Shown in pieces: positions 11,072 through 56,862 of a stretch of 64,000 nucleotides of DNA (the stretch's first letter is position 1; every line of letters begins with the position of its first letter). Below the pieces are notes generated by a model. It was not told the DNA's origin. It saw only the letters and a list, made by a program, of their open reading frames with translations, and did no database searches. Source of the stretch: Streptosporangium carneum. GTDB taxonomy: Bacteria > Actinomycetota > Actinomycetes > Streptosporangiales > Streptosporangiaceae. The stretch lies in contig NZ_BSEV01000008.1 of NCBI RefSeq assembly GCF_027922005.1, positions 124,001 through 188,000 on the forward strand, written 5' to 3'. A program made the position numbers and the translations under genes.

Positions 11072-12221
11072 GATGCTGCGTCGTTATCCCCGGCGGCTGG
11101 AGCAGGGGCGGGGGTTCGGGGCCGGGATCCTCGGTGAGGACGACGCCGGCGGCCGAGTGGTCGAAGCCGGCGGGCCAGCGGGTGCGCTCGCTGGCCACCG
11201 CGCCCGTCAGACGTGCCTGGAGAAGGTCGGCCGTGCGCAGGTCGGCCCCGCGCAGGTCGGCCAGGCGCAGGTCGGCGCGGCGGAAGACGGCGCCGCCCGC
11301 GTCGGCCTTGCGCAGGTTCGCCTCGCGCAGATCGGCCTCGGTGAAGTCCGCCTCGCGCAAGTCGGTTTCGACCAGCCGTGCGCCTCGCAGGTCGGCCAGA
11401 GCGAAGCGGGCACGGCGCAGGGTCGCGGTCTTGAGGTCGGCGTGCCGCAGGTTGACCGAGACGAGGGAGGTCTGCGTCAGGTTGGCGTGGTACAGGCCCG
11501 CCGCCTCCATGCAGGAGCGATCCAGGTTGACCCCGGGGAGCCAGAGCCCGTCGCAGTCGGCCCGGCGCAGGTCGGTGACGCTGAGGTTGACCCAGGACTG
11601 CTCCCGATGCCGGCACAGCACGCCGAGACCGGTCAGCGCCACCTGGGCGTCGGCCGCGCGGACCTCCAGTGGCGCGACGTCGTTGACGGGCGTGTCCGCC
11701 GCCGGCGCCTCCGGCCCGGTGGGCGGCCACGGCAGGTGTGTACGCAGGTAAGCGGCCTTGATGGAGATGACGGCCTCACGGTCGCGAGCGGAGTGCTCCG
11801 CGATCCGCCACAGCGCGTGCAGTCCGCCGATGCGTGTCTCCAGCTTGTCACTGCCGAGCTGGTCGACGGCCCGGCTGAACCTGTCGGTGACGTAGCCCTC
11901 CTGGGTGGCGCGCAAGCCGTCCTGGCTGACTCGCAGTTGCCGCCAGGTGGCGTACGCGCCGAACAGCAGGACCATGCCGCCGACGGCCTGCACGAGTGTC
12001 GTACGGACGTCGTTCACCGCTTTCAGCCGGTCCTGCGCGGCGACGCTCGCCCCGGCGAGGTCGTGGGCGACCAACTCACCCGGCAGGACGACGAGCACCG
12101 CGCCCAGAACGGCCAATCCCGTCGCCCCCGTCAACAGGGCTGTGATCGCACGACGCCTGACCAGTCGGTCGCGCCACGGCCGGCGGCCGCGGCCCGACCT
12201 TCCCGTCTCCCCCGTCTCCAC
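11049..12221 (-). CDS. membrane-anchored pentapeptide repeat protein
   Basis: This protein of 390 residues has two hydrophobic segments near the N-terminus (about 27-50 and 78-95). A linker follows (VTDRFSRAVDQLGSDKLETRIGGLHALWRIAEHSARD), common to this actinobacterial family. After about residue 215 it shows a long run of A(D/N)LxxA units such as ADLKTATLRRARFALADLRGARL and READFTEADLREANLRKADAGG. Such repeats fold as a four-sided right-handed beta helix. Cytoplasmic members can mimic DNA, but membrane-linked ones have no proven role. It carries no kinase or effector domain. Confidence 0.88.
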   Translation of the reverse strand: METGETGRSGRGRRPWRDRLVRRRAITALLTGATGLAVLGAVLVVLPGELVAHDLAGASVAAQDRLKAVNDVRTTLVQAVGGMVLLFGAYATWRQLRVSQDGLRATQEGYVTDRFSRAVDQLGSDKLETRIGGLHALWRIAEHSARDREAVISIKAAYLRTHLPWPPTGPEAPAADTPVNDVAPLEVRAADAQVALTGLGVLCRHREQSWVNLSVTDLRRADCDGLWLPGVNLDRSCMEAAGLYHANLTQTSLVSVNLRHADLKTATLRRARFALADLRGARLVETDLREADFTEADLREANLRKADAGGAVFRRADLRLADLRGADLRTADLLQARLTGAVASERTRWPAGFDHSAAGVVLTEDPGPEPPPLLQPPGITTQHPPLRSTP

Positions 12222-12271
12222 GGCATGAAAGCCTAGGCGTCGCCCAAAAGACGATCAAGATGCAACGTGTC

Positions 12272-13654
12272 CTACCCCTGAGCCGGACGCGAACCCCGCC
12301 ATCGGACGAACCTCAGGAGGGCGACCCCGCCGAAGTAGGCGACCAGCACTCTCACCGGCAGGCCCGTAGGTCCGTGATAGCCCATGCCCGCCAGTGCGAG
12401 GGCCAGCAGAGCGGCGAGCACGCCTCCGAGCCCGATGATCACCAGGGTGGTGGGCCACACGCCGGTCACCGTGCCCACAGGATCGATCCGTGACCTCGTA
12501 CGCTGCTCGAAACGGCCGAACACCGCGAGAAGAAGGGTGAGGATCAACGCCAGGCAGGCAAGCCAGGGAACGCGGAGAAGCAGCCAGGGCTCCGATCCGG
12601 GCGCGGCACCGGAAATCACCGCCGTTCCGTGGAGCACCAGGACGCCGATCACGACAGCGACCATGTGCCACAGGAAAAGCGACATGATCACCAGATTGAC
12701 CGCGACCACGACGCCCCACGGCCCCGGTCGCCGCAGCCACCGATTTCCCGCGCCGCGCATCCACAGGGCGACTCCCGTCTGCGTGACGGCCAGCGCCAGG
12801 AGAGCCAGCGTGGGCGGAGAGGTGTTGCGCACCTTCTCTCCTTCGAACGCCACCATGCTGACCGGATAGGGGCCGACCACCGTGAGGAGCACGAGAGCGA
12901 CGAACCCGCCCGCCGCCATCGACAGAGCCGCGCTCCGCCGGAGCGGCAGGCGTCCGTCCTGCCAGGCGAAGCCGAGTTGGTGTACGGCCAGCCAGGCGAG
13001 CAGGAAGTTCGCCTGCCCCACGTAGGGAACGGCCAGCACCAGACGGGCCAGGTCTCCCCCGGCGACCAGGGCCGCCAGGACGATCGGCACGGCCGGCCCC
13101 GCACGCCGGTGCAGCGCGTGCGTCCACGGGGTGAGGGCCATCACGGCGAGGTAGGCGACAAGGAACCACAACGGGATCGAGGCGAGCCAGACCGCCGCGC
13201 CGATCAGGGCGGGCTCGGCTCCCAGAACCCGGGCGGTCAGGGCTCCCACCGCCAGTCCCCCCAGCAGCACCGTCGTCGGGCGCAGGAGCCGGGTCGTCCG
13301 GCCCAGCACCCAGCCCCTGGCGTTGCCGCCCCGGTCGAGATGGGAGGTGAGGGACGCGGCGTTCGCGAAGCCCCCGACCAGGAAGAACAGGGGCATCACC
13401 TGGAACAGCCACGTCAGCGGGCGGGTCCACGGGAGGATCTCGAGAACGCTCCCCCCTTGGAAGCCTCCGCCGTCACGAGTCACATAGATCGCCAGCCAGT
13501 GGCCGACGACGACCGCCGTGATCGCTACGGCGCGCAGCAGGTCGACATAGCGCTCCCGCTGCGGCGGTGTGTGCCCGGCCAGCCACCGCACTCGCCGTGT
13601 CATCCGCTGAACGACCCGGACAGGGCGTGTCGCCATGCCACCGACGCTTGACAT
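12272..13654 (-). CDS. acyltransferase family 3 membrane protein
   Basis: This integral membrane acyltransferase of 460 residues (OafA/NodX type) has ten or more hydrophobic helices. It starts with ERYVDLLRAVAITAVVVGHWLA, where R-x-x-D-x-L-R-A and the membrane histidine of VGHW are the family's signature; FLVGGFANA and FLWHM follow. It probably moves an acyl group to a sugar or lipid across the membrane. The start used gives MSSVGG; a nearer ATG 18 bp downstream and a longer frame 5' are possible, and the ribosome site is not strong. No glycan cluster lies nearby. Confidence 0.87.
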   Translation of the reverse strand: MSSVGGMATRPVRVVQRMTRRVRWLAGHTPPQRERYVDLLRAVAITAVVVGHWLAIYVTRDGGGFQGGSVLEILPWTRPLTWLFQVMPLFFLVGGFANAASLTSHLDRGGNARGWVLGRTTRLLRPTTVLLGGLAVGALTARVLGAEPALIGAAVWLASIPLWFLVAYLAVMALTPWTHALHRRAGPAVPIVLAALVAGGDLARLVLAVPYVGQANFLLAWLAVHQLGFAWQDGRLPLRRSAALSMAAGGFVALVLLTVVGPYPVSMVAFEGEKVRNTSPPTLALLALAVTQTGVALWMRGAGNRWLRRPGPWGVVVAVNLVIMSLFLWHMVAVVIGVLVLHGTAVISGAAPGSEPWLLLRVPWLACLALILTLLLAVFGRFEQRTRSRIDPVGTVTGVWPTTLVIIGLGGVLAALLALALAGMGYHGPTGLPVRVLVAYFGGVALLRFVRWRGSRPAQG

Positions 13655-24838: not shown

Positions 24839-26038
24839 ATGACGAACGCGTACTATCGCGAACATGAGCCGGTCATGCCGTCGTTCGACCGCCCCACCGG
24901 CTGCCCCTTCGACCCGTCCCCGGAGCTCACCGCGCTGCGCGGTGAGCTGCCGATCGCGCGCCTGGCCGCGCCCGAGGGCGCACCGGGCGTCTGGCTGGTC
25001 ACCGGCTACGAGCTGGTCCGCAAGATCTTCGCCGACCCACGCTTCAGCTCCCGCTACGAGACGCAGTACCACCCGCTCATGGACGCGCACATGCCGCCCG
25101 CTCCGCTCGGCGACCTGACCGGCATGGACGCGCCCGAGCACACCCGCATCCGCAAGATGCTGGCGGGCAAGTTCACCGTCCGCAGGATGAACCAGCTCAC
25201 CGAGCGGGTCACCGAGGTCACCCGGGCCCAGCTCGACGAGATGGAGAGGCAGGGGCCGCCGACCGACCTGGTTCAGGCCTTCGCCCATCCTGTCCCGGCT
25301 CAGATGATCTGCGAGCTGCTCGGCGTGCCGTACGACGAGCGCGCGGACTTCGCGGGCTTCACCCAGTCCGTCTCCAACGACGACGACCCCGAAGCGCAGC
25401 TCGCGGCCTTCACCCGGCTCGGCGAGTACCTGCGGGACCTCGCCCGGGCCAAGCGCGCCGACCCCACCGACGACCTGCTCAGCGACCTGACCGCGAGCGA
25501 CCTGACCGAAGACGAGCTCGGTGGCGTGGCCGCCTTCCTGCTCAGCGCCGGCCTGGACACCACGGCCAACATGCTGGCGCTCGGGACCTTCGCGCTGCTG
25601 CGGCACCCCTCGCAGCTCGCAGCCCTGCGCGACGACCCGAGCCTGGTCGACGGCGCGGTCGAGGAACTGCTGCGTCACCTTTCCATCGCCACCACCGGCA
25701 TGCGCGGCGTGCTGGAGGACGTCGAGCTCGGCGGCGCACCGCTCAGGGCCGGCGACACGGTCATCATCGCGGTCAACGCCGCCAACCGGGACCCGGCCAA
25801 GTTCTCCGACCCCGACGTGCTGGACATCCGCCGCTCGACCGCCGGGCACCTGGCCTTCGGCCACGGCGTCCACCAGTGCCTCGGCCAGCAACTCGCCCGT
25901 GTCGAGATGCGCGTCGCCTTCCCGGCACTGCTGACCCGCTTCCCGTCGCTGCGGCTTGCCGTACCGGCCGAAGAGGTGCCGCTGCGCGACCCCGTCCAGA
26001 TCTACGGCGTGCGCAGCCTGCCGGTCACCTGGGAGTGA
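24839..26038 (+). CDS. cytochrome P450
   Basis: This is a soluble class I P450 of 399 residues, as in actinomycete CYP105/107-type enzymes. The I-helix motif is AGLDTT (237-242), the K-helix ExxR is E276-L-L-R279, and the heme loop is FGHGVHQCLG with Cys347. No ferredoxin or reductase gene is next to it. There is no ribosome site; an operator ends 1 bp before the ATG and the promoter predicts a leaderless transcript. It is divergent from the two-HTH regulator, which is its likely repressor. Substrate unknown; a stand-alone detoxifying role is as likely as biosynthesis. Confidence 0.96.
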   Translation: MTNAYYREHEPVMPSFDRPTGCPFDPSPELTALRGELPIARLAAPEGAPGVWLVTGYELVRKIFADPRFSSRYETQYHPLMDAHMPPAPLGDLTGMDAPEHTRIRKMLAGKFTVRRMNQLTERVTEVTRAQLDEMERQGPPTDLVQAFAHPVPAQMICELLGVPYDERADFAGFTQSVSNDDDPEAQLAAFTRLGEYLRDLARAKRADPTDDLLSDLTASDLTEDELGGVAAFLLSAGLDTTANMLALGTFALLRHPSQLAALRDDPSLVDGAVEELLRHLSIATTGMRGVLEDVELGGAPLRAGDTVIIAVNAANRDPAKFSDPDVLDIRRSTAGHLAFGHGVHQCLGQQLARVEMRVAFPALLTRFPSLRLAVPAEEVPLRDPVQIYGVRSLPVTWE

Positions 26039-47322: not shown

Positions 47323-47500
47323 GCGGCGTCTCCTCACGGGTGGTCTGTGCACACCTGAGAAGCCTTTCAGCGCCTCCAGGCTCCGACCAGCGGATGAGGG
47401 ACGATTCGACGGTCAGCCGACGGGCTGACAGGAGGCGGACCGTCATCCGGCGGGATTACCCGGCCCCGCGCCCGGGGTATGGCTCTCAGCCCGACAACGT

Positions 47501-47619
47501 CCGGCCCGAGAATCCGTCCGGCCCGAGAATCCGTCCGGCCCGAGAATCCGTCCGGCCCGAGAATCCGTCCGGCCCGAGAATCCGTCCGGCCCGAGAATCC
47601 GTCCGGCTCAAGAAGCCGT
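47501..47619. repeat. 17-bp tandem repeat, six perfect copies plus one degenerate
   Basis: CCGGCCCGAGAATCCGT repeats exactly six times (47501-47602) and a seventh copy has four changes. It lies between the start of the PAF-AH-like gene and the end of the PAS gene. The unit is not a multiple of three and each frame is open by chance, so it is not coding. It would vary in copy number by slippage. Confidence 0.95.
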
Positions 47620-47705
47620 CCGGGGCGGGTCTCGGAGGCGGGCGGGGCTGACGGCGAGGTCGCCGACGTCGCCGACGCCCATGGGCGGAGCCGGCCTGCC
47701 CCGGT

Positions 47706-52199: not shown

Positions 52200-53582
52200 T
52201 CAGCGGTCGCTCCACCTGATCTCGTAGGGCTTGAGGGCGAACTCCTTGCCGTCCACGGTCGTGGTGACCTTCGTGTCGGCGGTGTTGACCATCACCAGCC
52301 GCCGCGGCTGCGCCAACACCCTGACCTTGGGGTCGGAGGAGGCGACCTGCTCCAGCTCGGCTCCGGCGGGGAACCACCTGGCGAAGTCGCTCACCAGCCG
52401 CCCCGTCGGCAGCAGGGCGCCGGTCCGCGGGTCCCACATGCAGGCCTGGCAGGCGCCCTCCTTGGTCTGCGGATTCCAGTACAACGCCGTGGCGGCGCCG
52501 CTCCTGGCGAACTCGATCATCGAGGCGGCCTGGACGGCGATCCGCTTGGCTTCGGGCCACGTGGTGCCGTCCTCGGGGACGAAGTACCACTCCGACCACC
52601 AGACCGGCAGGTCGCCGGCCTTCGCCCGCAACCAGGCGGTGACCGCGCTGAACTTGCCCAGCGCTCCGAAGGCGTCGGGCAGCAGCTCGTGGGCGTCGGT
52701 CAGCGACGCGCCGTCGACCACGATGAAGTCGGCGCCCTTCTTGTTCTTGAACCAGTACTCGAAGGCGTCCAGGGCGTTCTGGTTGACGACTCCCCACGGG
52801 CCCCGCAGCTCGGAGTCGCCGGTCCTGTTGCTGTCGAAGCCGATGTAGGGGCCGCCGATCTCGGCGTCGGGCCTGACCGCCTTCACCGCGTCGTAGACCT
52901 TGTTGTAGAGCTCGGTGTAGCCCTTGAAGTCCGCCGGCTTGGAGTGGTCCTTCCAGAAGCCCTTGAGCTCGTTCCAGACCATGAAGTACTTGACGTCCGG
53001 GTACCTCGTCGCGACGGCGGCCGACAGCTTGGCGAAGTCGTCGAAGTGCTCGGGGTAGGGGGCGTCCTCCAGGTGCTCGGCCCAGGCCGACTCCTCTGTC
53101 GGCCCCTCTGGCCCCCCCTTCATCCAGTCAGGGGCGCAGCAGAGCGTGATGACCGGCGTGCCTCCGGACTGCCTCATGAGGTTCGTCCGGCTGTCGAGGT
53201 CCTCCCAGAAGAACTCTCCCGGGCGGGGTTCGGGGTTGAGGGCGCCGAACCCCATGATGTGCTGGTTCTGCAGCATCGGGGTCTGGGCGAGCGCGCGGGA
53301 GGCGTCCCGCTCGAACCGCTCGGTGACGTTGTTGGCGCTGACCCCCGTGTGGGTGAACCCCCAGCGAGGCCACGCGGGGTCCACCGCCGGCGGCTTCTGG
53401 ATCCCGGTGCCGGACGCCGCCGGTGAGGAGGCGGTGGACGGTTGCGCGACGGGGGCCGCCCTGTCCGGGGCGCCGCCGGCGGAACAGCCGGCCATGACCA
53501 GCGCCATGGTGACGGCCCCCGCGGCTGAGGCGACCGCCCGACCGGAACGCCTCCATGCCGATCGCTCACTACTCGACGACAC
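52200..53582 (-). CDS. GH39-like glycoside hydrolase lipoprotein
   Basis: This protein of 460 residues starts with a lipoprotein signal whose lipobox is LVMAGC (Cys33), so it would be fixed to the outer face of the membrane. After a Ser/Pro/Ala linker the clan-A barrel follows. The acid/base is Glu205 in MVWNELKGFW and the nucleophile Glu331 in PVWWSEWYF, in the spacing of GH39 and GH5-like enzymes. PVITLCCAPDW and ALYWNP are further barrel strands. Xylosidase or iduronidase activity is possible. GTG start with GGTGGAG upstream. Confidence 0.87.
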   Translation of the reverse strand: MSSSSERSAWRRSGRAVASAAGAVTMALVMAGCSAGGAPDRAAPVAQPSTASSPAASGTGIQKPPAVDPAWPRWGFTHTGVSANNVTERFERDASRALAQTPMLQNQHIMGFGALNPEPRPGEFFWEDLDSRTNLMRQSGGTPVITLCCAPDWMKGGPEGPTEESAWAEHLEDAPYPEHFDDFAKLSAAVATRYPDVKYFMVWNELKGFWKDHSKPADFKGYTELYNKVYDAVKAVRPDAEIGGPYIGFDSNRTGDSELRGPWGVVNQNALDAFEYWFKNKKGADFIVVDGASLTDAHELLPDAFGALGKFSAVTAWLRAKAGDLPVWWSEWYFVPEDGTTWPEAKRIAVQAASMIEFARSGAATALYWNPQTKEGACQACMWDPRTGALLPTGRLVSDFARWFPAGAELEQVASSDPKVRVLAQPRRLVMVNTADTKVTTTVDGKEFALKPYEIRWSDR

Positions 53583-53714
53583 CTGATCTCCACCTGATTC
53601 TCATCATCCGCTTTGCTCAGAGCGTTCCATGGGCGATGCGAAAGCGGTGAATTAGGGGCATGGTTGACAGACAAGCGTTATCGCGACCGATTCGCGACGC
53701 CTGAAACGGCGGCG

Positions 53715-54416
53715 TCACCCCTCTCCGCGAAGCCCGCCGATGCTCCGGACGGTCGCGTCGACGACGGCGTCCAGCGGCTGGCGCGCGTCGATCGTGATCC
53801 ATCCCGGCCGGGCCGCCCACCTGCCGAGCACCTCGTGGATCTTCCGCTGGTGACCGATGAAACTGGGCCTGGCACAGCTCAGATCCATCGCGCACTCGTA
53901 GGGCACCGCCCGGTCCCCCATCCGGTCCCAGGCCGTCTCCGGGTCCGACTGGAGATAGATCACCGCGTCGACGCCCGGCAGCCCGGCCACGACCTGCTCC
54001 ACCCACGCCTGGTCCAGCCCGTAGGCGATCTCGCTCGCGGCGTGTTTCATCCAGTAACCGTCGAGCAGCAGCACCGACTCCGGCGTTTCCACGCCCTGCC
54101 CATCCCACTGCCCATCCCCCTGCCCGCTCCACCGCTCATCCCGCCGCTCATCCGTGTGTCCCTCCGTCCGCCCGTCCACGACGGACGCGACGGAGGTCCA
54201 GAGCAGGAAGAGCAGACGCGACACCGGCGACATCAGCGCGGTGCGGGCACGGACGTGGCGAACGTCGGCCCCGATGAAGTCGGCCGTCGGATACTCCGGG
54301 CTGCCGACGATGTCCCACCGGTCGATCACCTTCGCGTGGTGACCGAGGAGTTCGCAGACCGCGTGGGCCACCGTCGACTTTCCCGCGCCGTCGGCGCCGA
54401 CGATCGCGGCGATCAC
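53715..54416 (-). CDS. thymidylate-kinase-like P-loop kinase
   Basis: This protein of 233 residues starts VIAAIVGADGAGKSTVAHAV, with the Walker A loop of TMPK-like kinases, and has the LLLDGYWMKHAASEIAYGLD segment (lid/LID-like part) and IYLQSDPETAWDRM. An acidic Gly/Gln/Arg-rich insert (about 85-115, DERRDERWSGQGDGQWDGQG) is unusual. The GTG start overlaps the TGA of the nucleotidyltransferase gene (GTGA), so both are translated together. A normal tmk is an essential lone gene, so this paralogue probably phosphorylates something else. Confidence 0.82.
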   Translation of the reverse strand: MIAAIVGADGAGKSTVAHAVCELLGHHAKVIDRWDIVGSPEYPTADFIGADVRHVRARTALMSPVSRLLFLLWTSVASVVDGRTEGHTDERRDERWSGQGDGQWDGQGVETPESVLLLDGYWMKHAASEIAYGLDQAWVEQVVAGLPGVDAVIYLQSDPETAWDRMGDRAVPYECAMDLSCARPSFIGHQRKIHEVLGRWAARPGWITIDARQPLDAVVDATVRSIGGLRGEG

Positions 54417-55573
54417 GAGGCCGCCTTTGGATGGCAGCCGAACCGTGGCGACCTCCGGATGATCAGCTCGTCGGGTTCCTCTCCCCCCGCCGAACCCCCC
54501 TCGACCGCGCCGAAGGCGGCCAGGCTGGCCACCGCCGCCCCGACGTCCTTGACGTCGTCCGGCAGGTCCTCGCGCGGCACCGCGGACAACGCGCGCCCGT
54601 CGAGCTCGCGCCACAGGCGGACGGTGCGCTCGGCGACCTCGTAACCGTCCTCGGGTCCGACGAACGCCCAGCCGTCGGCGAACCGCAGCGGTGCGAAGTA
54701 CACGCTCCTGCGCGGGCCCGTGCCGCTCGGCCGTGACGGCGCGGGCAGCCTGTCGAGCGGTTCGTGCCACCCCTCGACGACACTCCACGACAACAGCAGC
54801 CCACCGGCCCAGAGACGCTCCTCGGCGATGGCCCGGACCTCGTCCGGCCACCCGCCGGACTCCGGATGGAGCTCGCGGTGGGTCAGCCGCCAGACGTGGT
54901 CGCACCATGACGCCGTCGCCGAGGTCCTCGCCAACCGCCGGAACAGGAACTTCGGCCCGAAGTACACGTCACCGGCCGCGGCGAGGACCGCCTCGCAACC
55001 GGCCTGCAGCGCGAGGTCGGACGCGGTCGCCGCGGTGAGCAGGTCACCGACGTCCAGCGCGCCGTAGACGTCCTCCGCGTACGCCGAGAAGACGTTGGCG
55101 TTACGGGTGATGAGAATCTGCCTGACCACGTTCGGGTCGAGCGTGTCGAGCAGTTCGCGCCAGCGCCGGTCGGCGTGCAGGATCTGCCCGGTGGACAGCC
55201 GCACCAACGCGTTCAGTGTCTTCAGCTCGGTCGCGATCTGCGTGCGGTCCGCACCCGTGGTGCGGTACTCCGCGCCGAGTTCGACAAGCTCGCGGACCTT
55301 GCCTGCGGGCACCGGGTTGACGTGCACCTGGATGCCGTCGTGTTCGAAGACGATGTCGCTGCCGGGCAGGCCGGACCCGACCGCGTAGAGATCGATGTCG
55401 GAGGTCCCGTGCCCCAGGCCGACCGCGAAGCTGCCGCCGAGGAACGCCAGCTCGATCCGGGCCGCCCCGCCGAGCCGACGCTCCAGCACGGCCTCCGCGG
55501 CTCTCGTTTCCTCGGGGGTGAAACCACGGTCCCGAACGTTCCAGGACGACACCGAACCACGGGCGTTCACCAT
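54413..55573 (-). CDS. nucleotidyltransferase-fold protein with PqqD-like C-terminal segment
   Basis: This protein of 386 residues has a Pol-beta-type nucleotidyltransferase motif: G46-G47-S48, then D59-I-D61 in GHGTSDIDLY. A helical middle follows (RQILITRNANVFSAYAEDVYGALDV). The segment around 290-357 (FADGWAFVGPEDGYEVAERT, then VRLWRELDGR, later VKDVGAAVASLAAFGAVE) resembles a PqqD/RRE winged helix that holds RiPP precursors. Two starts are possible: this ATG with GAGG, or an ATG 198 bp upstream with AGGAG at ideal distance, giving a 66-residue Arg/Ser/Pro-rich extension. Its end overlaps the P-loop kinase start. Confidence 0.78.
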   Translation of the reverse strand: MVNARGSVSSWNVRDRGFTPEETRAAEAVLERRLGGAARIELAFLGGSFAVGLGHGTSDIDLYAVGSGLPGSDIVFEHDGIQVHVNPVPAGKVRELVELGAEYRTTGADRTQIATELKTLNALVRLSTGQILHADRRWRELLDTLDPNVVRQILITRNANVFSAYAEDVYGALDVGDLLTAATASDLALQAGCEAVLAAAGDVYFGPKFLFRRLARTSATASWCDHVWRLTHRELHPESGGWPDEVRAIAEERLWAGGLLLSWSVVEGWHEPLDRLPAPSRPSGTGPRRSVYFAPLRFADGWAFVGPEDGYEVAERTVRLWRELDGRALSAVPREDLPDDVKDVGAAVASLAAFGAVEGGSAGGEEPDELIIRRSPRFGCHPKAAS

Positions 55574-55977
55574 GCTGTTCCTCATCGGGTCAGGGAGTAA
55601 GCCGTCCGGCAGACTCCTGGCGGCGGCCGGTGGCAGGGGGGCGCTCCGGGTTCCCTGACGTCGAGTCCCGGGGAAGGACCGTGCTCCTGACGGTTGGCCG
55701 GAAGGGCTGATCGCCACTGGAATGTCGTGCCCGCCTGGTCGCGTCACGCGGAGTCGCCTGCGACCTGACATCTAAGCTCCTGAGTTATCGTTCAGTGCGC
55801 TTTTGGGATGTCTTTCGGGGTTTTCTACGGCGTCAGCCAGCTTCCAGCTTATTGATCCATTCCCCGACGTCCATATCCAATTCCTTGCGGTCTGAGACGC
55901 CGTCAGCGAGGCCCGACGACCGGACAGGGCCCGTCCCCTTCCCTGAGCGTCCGGCCCGCCGGTTCGAAAGGCGTGGT
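55574..55977. other. region upstream of the nucleotidyltransferase gene, possible short frame
   Basis: These 404 bp include an AT-richer part (55770-55900). On the minus strand a frame ends SDRKELDMDVGEWINKLEAG before a TGA at 55833-55835, with codon use unlike the region. It has no clear start. A short lost gene or a peptide precursor is possible. An AGGAG-ATG pair at 55771 could start the nucleotidyltransferase gene earlier. Confidence 0.35.
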
Positions 55978-56754
55978 TCAGGGCGTCCAGACATAGGGCG
56001 TGGTCGTGGTGACGGCCTGGAACCCGAGCCTGGCCAGGATGGGGCGGCTGTCGTCGGAGGCGTCCACGTGCAGCCAGCGGACGCCGCGCGCGAACGCGCG
56101 ACGGGCCCGTTCGGCGACCAGTGCCCGGTAGATCCCTCTCCCGCGCCAGGCGGCGAGCGTCGAGCCGCCCCACAGTGACGCGAACTCGGTGCCCGGCCGA
56201 TACGCCAGCCACGCCGCCGACACCACCCGCCCGTCCGCCTCGGCGACCAGCACGGTCAGATCGTCCGGCGCGGCGGCGAGTCTCACCGCCAGGTCGTCGG
56301 CCAGCCATCCCATGTCGGCGTCCCAGACCTGTGACTCCATCGCGGCGATCCGCCTCAGGTCCTCCGGCGCGTCGACCTCCCGCAGCGTCACCCCCGCGGG
56401 CAGGACCGGCTCGGCGACGACGTCGGCCACCAGGCCGATCATGACGGTCTCGGTCTCCTCGGCGGTGAATCCGGCCTTCAGCAGGCGTCGCGCGATGTCA
56501 CCCGGGTGGTCGTGCGCCCGAGTCTTCCACTCCACGGACTCGCCGCGCGCCGCGAAGAAGTCCCGTTGCCGTGCGATCAGCGCGTCCAGCGCCGCGCCCT
56601 CCACCCCCAGGTCGCGGGGGCCGGTCACCAGACCCCGGTGCTCGCCGACGACCCGCAGCACCGGCCCGTCCCACTCGTGGGTGACCCCGGCCGCGGGCTT
56701 GGGCGGCACTCCGCGCATCTGCTGGTCATAGGCGTGCAAAAGGTCCGTGATCAT
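55978..56754 (-). CDS. GNAT family N-acetyltransferase
   Basis: This protein of 258 residues has a GNAT domain in its C-terminal two-thirds: VTLREVDAPEDLRRIAAMESQVW, VLVAEADGRVVSAAWLAYR, and the acetyl-CoA loop STLAAWRGRGIYRALVAERARR (R-x-x-G-x-G-like). The N-terminal part (1-110) is another, degenerate GNAT-like half. The ATG has TAGCCT 6 nt upstream and no good ribosome site, so a leaderless start is likely. Acceptor unknown. Confidence 0.9.
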   Translation of the reverse strand: MITDLLHAYDQQMRGVPPKPAAGVTHEWDGPVLRVVGEHRGLVTGPRDLGVEGAALDALIARQRDFFAARGESVEWKTRAHDHPGDIARRLLKAGFTAEETETVMIGLVADVVAEPVLPAGVTLREVDAPEDLRRIAAMESQVWDADMGWLADDLAVRLAAAPDDLTVLVAEADGRVVSAAWLAYRPGTEFASLWGGSTLAAWRGRGIYRALVAERARRAFARGVRWLHVDASDDSRPILARLGFQAVTTTTPYVWTP

Positions 56755-56862
56755 GACCTGAGGCTACCCGGCGGGCGGAAGGAACACGGGGCGCGGAACG
56801 GCCCCGCGTCCCGTGACATCACGGCGGCGGCCGGAGTGCCCCTGGGGTCGGGCGAGGCCGCG

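Follow-up and report, generated by a model that had tools for sequence, protein, structure and literature searches.

What would a nucleotidyltransferase (NTase) and a P-loop kinase act on when their genes overlap and stand apart from any AfsA or dikinase gene? In this work, we have addressed this question for a gene pair present in the window, which is the whole stretch of 64,000 nucleotides of Streptosporangium carneum DNA that was analysed. The initial annotation had suggested that the pair may modify a peptide or a small molecule. Our preferred reading, to which we give a probability of about 0.42, is that the two proteins are a two-enzyme module working on the phosphate of a small lipid-like lactone of the AfsA type.

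The NTase and kinase genes

The two genes are coupled by a GTGA overlap, as had been described at first, and the coordinates assigned to them were exact (Table 1). The 4-base overlap is also found in both other full-length relatives, those of Streptomyces durmitorensis plasmid p1 (L022), where it again reads GTGA, and of the Streptosporangiaceae strain NEAU-GS5 (L002), where it reads ATGA. A candidate ribosome site, GAGGAA, is placed 4 bases ahead of the NTase ATG. The third-position GC of the two genes is 0.902 and 0.897, for a window mean of 0.905 (SD 0.042) that was obtained from 44 ORFs of a simple gene caller, GC being one of its own criteria. Both signature motifs, the G-[GS]...D-x-D of the NTase and the GADGAGKST of the kinase, are intact, which agrees with the initial annotation.

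Table 1. Position of the NTase–kinase pair and of its main features in the window
Feature	Position	Strand	Remarks
NTase, 386 aa	54413..55573	-	ATG start; pol-beta-type NTase domain, middle region, PqqD-like tail
P-loop kinase, thymidylate-kinase type, 233 aa	53715..54416	-	GTG start; PF02223 27.8 bits, cut-off 27
GTGA shared by the NTase stop and the kinase start	54413..54416	-	4-base overlap also in L002 and L022
NTase motif GGSFAVGLGHGTSDIDLY, residues 46-63	55385..55438	-	Intact
PqqD-like C-terminal domain, NTase residues 288-358	54500..54712	-	Predicted by profile comparison
Walker A GADGAGKST, kinase residues 7-15	54372..54398	-	Intact
YECAMDLSC, kinase residues 173-181	53874..53900	-	YEC and second Cys in 7/7 subfamily members
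Low-complexity kinase insertion, ~residues 83-113	54078..54170	-	Partly a 12/24-bp repeat; missing in 6/6 relatives
Stretch unlike congener G013	53682..55977		In G013 the two flanking genes enclose an unrelated plus-strand gene

The NTase and its wider family

The pol-beta NTase signature is present in the window protein as GGSFAVGLGHGTSDID, and its Pfam NTase matches are all below the cut-off. Pol-beta nucleotidyltransferases normally carry a third acidic residue. At this position the window protein has His84 and no acidic residue; a histidine is also found in L002, L022 and L010, whereas 7 of the 11 aligned NTases have Asp. Because His84 replaces the third acid, nucleotidyl transfer by the window NTase is uncertain. 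The histidine would be compatible with an acceptor for which no general base is required, for instance a phosphate, and equally with a changed or lost activity.

Over most of its length, the window NTase has the same domain order as a family of NTase–PqqD fusions (L010, L011, L012, L013, L023 and L052), with which it shares 20–26% identity. This family differs from the window NTase in that Asp, not His, occupies the third acidic position in all members but L010, and in that its loci hold no member of the window kinase subfamily, just ordinary TMK-like kinases in L010 and L013. These two loci were considered as further NTase–kinase pairs; their kinases carry a DRF/DRY motif, score 21.6 and 40.2 bits against the kinase profile, and were excluded from the subfamily.

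The link between such NTases and RiPP clusters, to which the initial annotation had drawn attention, reappears in distant relatives. In L052 (7117-10208) the NTase–PqqD protein comes directly after a RiPP-maturation radical SAM C-methyltransferase (TIGR03975, 617.5 bits, cut-off 281.85). In L012 (5175-9358) an asparagine synthase, a tail-less NTase of 259 aa, then a separate PqqD frame and an AurF-like gene lie side by side, and a second NTase, with a fused tail, is encoded 2.4 kb further on the minus strand (11761-12948).

A PqqD-like tail at the level of the family

The end of the NTase had been read as a PqqD winged helix. This reading found support at the level of family profiles, though the Pfam and NCBIfam PqqD models gave no match to the window NTase, nor to its tail alone. 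With hhalign, in one-to-one profile comparisons and not library searches, eight C-termini of the family matched 13 PqqD domains at 92.5% (30 column shuffles, at most 0.2%), and the window and L022 tails alone matched the same domains at 61.4% (30 column shuffles, at most 0.9%). Of the 11 NTases, eight supplied the C-termini, and those of L002 and L014 and the short one of L012 were omitted because they have no full wing; the PqqD set comprised 13 of the 15 matches fetched by PF05402, two below the cut-off being left out. Among the distant relatives, PF05402 was recognized at the C-terminus in three of seven (L010, E 0.0012; L011, E 0.0042; L052, E 0.079), in all of them below the cut-off. A PDB search with the tail profile returned acyl-carrier-protein synthases (E 0.047) ahead of the lasso RRE TbiB1, which reached no better than E 0.12. 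The L002 NTase is without 17 residues of the wing. The profile comparisons thus predict a PqqD-like tail for the family, and because the family profiles match while the window protein goes unmatched by the models and the L002 wing is shortened, this tail is probably a real but fading domain.

A kinase subfamily of the thymidylate-kinase type

Thymidylate kinases phosphorylate a phosphate (a monophosphate) and carry a DRY motif. The window kinase, with its Walker A motif and a PF02223 score just over the cut-off, belongs by sequence to the same fold family, and its nearest solved structures by sequence are thymidylate kinases. In place of DRY, however, it has DGY, and its relatives have DGY, DGH, DSY or DGG. 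DxxWxKH and YEC-x5-C are invariant in seven of seven kinases, and these motifs mark a subfamily comprising those of the window, L002, L022, S. cadmiisoli (L090), Rhizobium leguminosarum (L091), R. rhizoryzae (L092) and Pantoea agglomerans (L093).

Three of these kinases (window, L002, L022) came to light via the NTase and so give no independent evidence of an NTase–kinase association. The other four members were found via the kinase alone: two have an NTase of the wide family in the same stretch (L091 and L092), one has an NTase of another family, NTP_transf_5 (L093), and one has none (L090). In this last locus the profiles detected no NTase, and the only annotated nucleotidyl transferase is a TOPRIM protein ~10 kb away. 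A second R. leguminosarum plasmid, whose kinase protein is 100% identical, was left out of the count. The Rhizobium NTases are distant relatives of the window NTase: they match the wider-family profile at 98 and 93 bits and are unmatched by the three-sequence NTase profile of the window group (E limit 0.1); by direct profile comparison they reach 63.5% against the window group and 98.9% against the other family members. A PqqD tail was suspected in them by eye and was discarded, the profile comparison giving 0.1% and 0.4%.

Both Rhizobium loci (L091, 1-10552; L092, 3351-14848) are plasmid clusters in which PEP mutase and phosphonopyruvate decarboxylase genes accompany the subfamily kinase and the NTase. 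L091 also holds TauD, an asparagine synthase and a 71-aa frame, a possible precursor. The Pantoea plasmid cluster (L093, 4254-15666) combines NTP_transf_5 and the subfamily kinase with a stand-alone PEP-utiliser C domain and a 69-aa frame, and its FAD/NAD(P)-binding protein also adjoins the S. cadmiisoli kinase (38% identity).

A second group of kinases (LxGxDxAGKS...DSYxYK) was set aside as related but separate. It includes those of L036 and L037, which are AfsA/dikinase/UbiA clusters, and those of L095, L096 and L097, in which just a kinase was matched among the reference genes.

Rarity of the pair

Matches to the NTase were found in 6 of 149 related genomes (E 0.001), close and full length in the window genome and G065 alone, and in 4 of 394 class-sample genomes (1e-6), where only that of the own genome is close. 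The kinase gave a similar picture, with matches in 6 of the 149 related genomes (E 0.001), close in the own genome and G065 alone, and in 1 of 296 phylum-sample genomes (1e-15), the own one. A pattern-based scan of genome contigs, sensitive to close relatives only, returned one NTase locus, that of NEAU-GS5, and a search of plasmids with the NTase returned two records, one of them full length, namely the S. durmitorensis plasmid p1 (59%). NTase orthologues that lack the kinase, which the initial annotation had named as evidence against its reading, were not found among the close relatives: the window and two of the two other full-length relatives keep it. Scans of viral contigs confirmed no relative of the pair. 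Anti-phage defence was considered and dropped, as two PADLOC candidate models matched just weakly (18.9 and 18.0 bits).

The operon of the full-length relatives

It is well supported that the pair of the relatives lies within an AfsA/dikinase operon. In L022 and L002, ten genes with 47–73% identity follow one another in identical order: AfsA, ICMT, nitroreductase, PEP-synthase-like dikinase, P450, SnoaL, NTase, kinase and two KASIII. The Pfam assignments in L022 are AfsA, ICMT, nitroreductase, PPDK_N with PEP-utilizers, P450, SnoaL_2, NTase (below cut-off), thymidylate kinase and two KASIII. The genes are tightly packed, with intergenic gaps of at most 6 bases in L002 and at most 11 in L022, except for the 110 bases between the two KASIII genes of L022. 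In both operons the SnoaL, NTase, kinase and first KASIII genes overlap, the SnoaL gene being the one that precedes the NTase and overlaps its start. The layout may resemble that of AfsA-type gamma-butyrolactone clusters, above all those of the salinipostin (spt) kind; in the clusters compared below, an AfsA hotdog protein stands beside a PEP-synthase-like dikinase, with KASIII in some.

This context speaks against a peptide as the substrate, one of the two possibilities first put forward, as both other full-length relatives sit in the AfsA/dikinase operon and no small frame common to them was found. When the frames of L002 and L022 that are not operon genes were compared, nothing convincing emerged, the best match (E 0.007 over 21 residues) being at non-corresponding places. 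It had also been suspected that a short precursor is encoded in the 400 bp ahead of the window pair, and this expectation was not borne out. The search took in ORFs of at least 20 aa in those 400 bp and was based on similarity, so that an unrelated, non-conserved precursor escapes it; neither the 404 upstream bases (best E 0.34) nor a 53-aa minus-strand frame (55833-55994; best E 0.38) had a convincing match in 15 comparison loci.

The pair or a UbiA-like gene in the dikinase clusters compared

The dikinase had matches in 11 of the 149 related genomes (1e-40), in 6 of the 394 class-sample genomes (1e-100) and in 17 plasmid records (1e-80), 16 of these being S. clavuligerus. A gene-by-gene comparison took in the eleven dikinase clusters for which a wide stretch (11.7 to 32 kb) had been retrieved. 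In nine of them a UbiA-like gene comes directly after the dikinase, and the other two carry the NTase–kinase pair. In the clusters compared, pair and UbiA-like gene are mutually exclusive (Fisher P 0.018, a value that ignores kinship, the two pair-bearing clusters being close kin), and the NTase profiles found no NTase in the nine UbiA-bearing clusters. Because the UbiA profile was built from six of the nine, the hits in these are by construction, and those in L038, L050 and L051 are independent. The UbiA-like gene of the S. clavuligerus cluster matches PF01040 at E 0.0006, below the cut-off. AfsA was detected at E 1e-5 in 8 of the 11 clusters, in L036 by tblastn over 74 residues and in L094 by annotation, and in L051 by none of these means. 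One of the 16 S. clavuligerus plasmids was used (L094). The clusters of G444 (same genus as G385) and of G021, G030, G096 and G123 (30-33%) were left out, and that of G088 (L053; 30-32% identity, no AfsA match) was dropped after fetching.

The pair-bearing clusters have no UbiA-like gene and do carry ICMT, nitroreductase, P450 and SnoaL, by which they may be set apart from the salinipostin (spt) kind. Two of the UbiA-bearing sister clusters, L049 and L050, have AfsA, ICMT, nitroreductase, dikinase, P450 and KASIIIa in common with L022; among the reference genes, the difference is made by UbiA there and by NTase, kinase, SnoaL and KASIIIb in L022.

A free-standing pair in the window genome

In L002 and L022 the pair is surrounded by AfsA and dikinase genes. 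The window genome has it alone on contig C8, and a cluster of AfsA, ICMT, nitroreductase, dikinase, UbiA and P450 is found on another contig, C29 (L034, 6567-13767). Besides the pair itself, the only relative of the operon in the window is a P450 at 24884-26032, which has 36% identity and is 28 kb away, and two more stretches of contig C8, of 20 kb each, yielded no relative of the operon. KASIIIa had no match in the window genome, an empty answer that alone proves little. The congener G013 has the same UbiA-type cluster (L035) but no close copy of the pair. Its DNA aligns to the flanks of the pair in the window at 83% (52202-53681 and 55978-56787), and between them there is an unrelated plus-strand gene, not the pair. 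The site could be compared in this one of five fetched congeners; in the other four the first flank alone matches beside the site. Since G013 has the same flanks with another gene between them, the pair behaves as a two-gene cassette, gained in the window genome or lost in G013.

Proposed function of the pair

AfsA enzymes are known for making butenolide phosphates and PEP synthase for phosphorylating an enol; IspD, IspE and IspF make a cyclic diphosphate via a nucleotidylated intermediate. We propose that in the operon of the relatives AfsA would couple a glycerol-type phosphate with a beta-ketoacyl chain, giving a butenolide phosphate, and that the PEP-synthase-like dikinase would put phosphate on an enol. 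The kinase resembles a nucleoside-monophosphate kinase in its build and would next phosphorylate the lactone or the lactone phosphate, and the NTase would move a nucleotidyl group (or a sugar, as proposed for PsmN) onto that phosphate. This transfer may activate the phosphate so that it closes into a cyclic enol phosphate, or the ester may be the end product. The pair would stand in for the UbiA-like membrane protein of the sister clusters, and the free-standing cassette of the window may serve the AfsA-dikinase-UbiA cluster elsewhere in its genome. We infer all the substrates, the order of the steps, the action in trans and the role of the pair in the window genome. The proposal draws on the operon of the relatives, on the exclusion of UbiA in the clusters compared, on the NTases and phosphonate genes that accompany members of the kinase subfamily, on the thymidylate kinases as nearest structures and on the PsmK/PsmN precedent described below. 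It is weakened by the window pair not being beside AfsA or a dikinase, by G013, which has the same UbiA-type cluster and no close copy of the pair, by the distance of the Rhizobium NTases and by His84.

Passages of the literature describe cyclophostin, the cyclipostins and the salinipostins as bicyclic enol phosphates, structurally related to A-factor (PMC6681047), and give spt as a butyrolactone cluster for salinipostin (PMC7888443). The literature searched, to which the primary papers on salinipostin biosynthesis did not belong, contains no description of this pair in an AfsA operon, nor of how the phosphate ring is formed in lactones of the cyclophostin/salinipostin kind. If the pair belongs to cyclic enol-phosphate lactone chemistry, two small enzymes would replace a membrane protein at one step, and a RiPP-type recognition domain would have survived, though decaying, in a pathway for which no peptide is known.

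A more far-reaching version of this proposal, which we hold to be rather unlikely, would have an NTase with a tail resembling RiPP leader-binding domains leave peptide maturation and become, with a YEC-x5-C kinase, a portable phosphate-activating module. The kinase would generate a phosphoanhydride, the NTase would provide NMP as the leaving group, and the phosphate would close on the enol, following the logic of IspD, IspE and IspF. Such a module would replace the UbiA-like step in AfsA hormone pathways, recur with the phosphonate pathways of Rhizobium and act in trans in the window genome.

Alternative explanations

Could the pair work on a peptide after all? The tail, PqqD-like by profile, would then bind a leader peptide, and kinase and NTase would decorate a ribosomal peptide encoded elsewhere. 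The distant relative L052 is in a clear RiPP locus, and the L012 and L014 loci suggest peptide maturation. There is also a precedent, again a kinase with an annotated nucleotidyltransferase: according to passages of two papers on the lasso peptide pseudomycoidin, the kinase PsmK attaches a phosphate group, which is then the target of PsmN (PMC9266682, PMC8498205). We consider a peptide substrate quite improbable, however, given the operon in which both other full-length relatives lie, the small-frame searches described above, in the relatives and upstream in the window, the shortened wing of L002 and a window protein that the PqqD models do not match. The window pair also differs from PsmN, which we take to be a member of PF14907, and from PsmK, presumably of the HPr kinase family, in that, up to E 1, its NTase has no PF14907 match and its kinase no HPr kinase match, and in that no peptide precursor was found.

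The isolation of the pair in the window invites two other explanations. It might be a modification or self-protection unit that inactivates a phospho-lactone or another compound by phosphorylation and nucleotidylation, independently of biosynthesis, and some distant NTases (L011, L012, L013 and L014) adjoin genes that by eye resemble MFS/ABC transporters; we find this unlikely, as in both other full-length relatives the pair is mid-operon, among tightly packed biosynthetic genes and with no transporter. Alternatively, the rest of an L022-like operon may have been lost, or may never have arrived, and the pair may now be inactive. Apart from the 36% P450, the remainder of the operon is indeed missing from the window and from the two further stretches of the contig, and the kinase carries an in-frame, repeat-rich insertion of ~30 residues that none of the six aligned relatives has. 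It seems improbable, though, that we are looking at a relic: neither frame is interrupted or short of a motif, the overlap and a ribosome site persist, and the third-position GC equals the mean of the 44 ORFs, within the limits set by a gene caller that uses GC. Finally, a PF02223 match just above the cut-off would suit ordinary nucleotide metabolism, the kinase then being one of dTMP and the NTase a tRNA or housekeeping enzyme. We see hardly any chance of this, since the pair is very rare, its DRY motif is replaced and its relatives belong to an operon of another kind.

Elsewhere in the window, at 47498-47623, a 17-bp unit is repeated in tandem (7.4 copies, 97% matches) between two predicted minus-strand genes.
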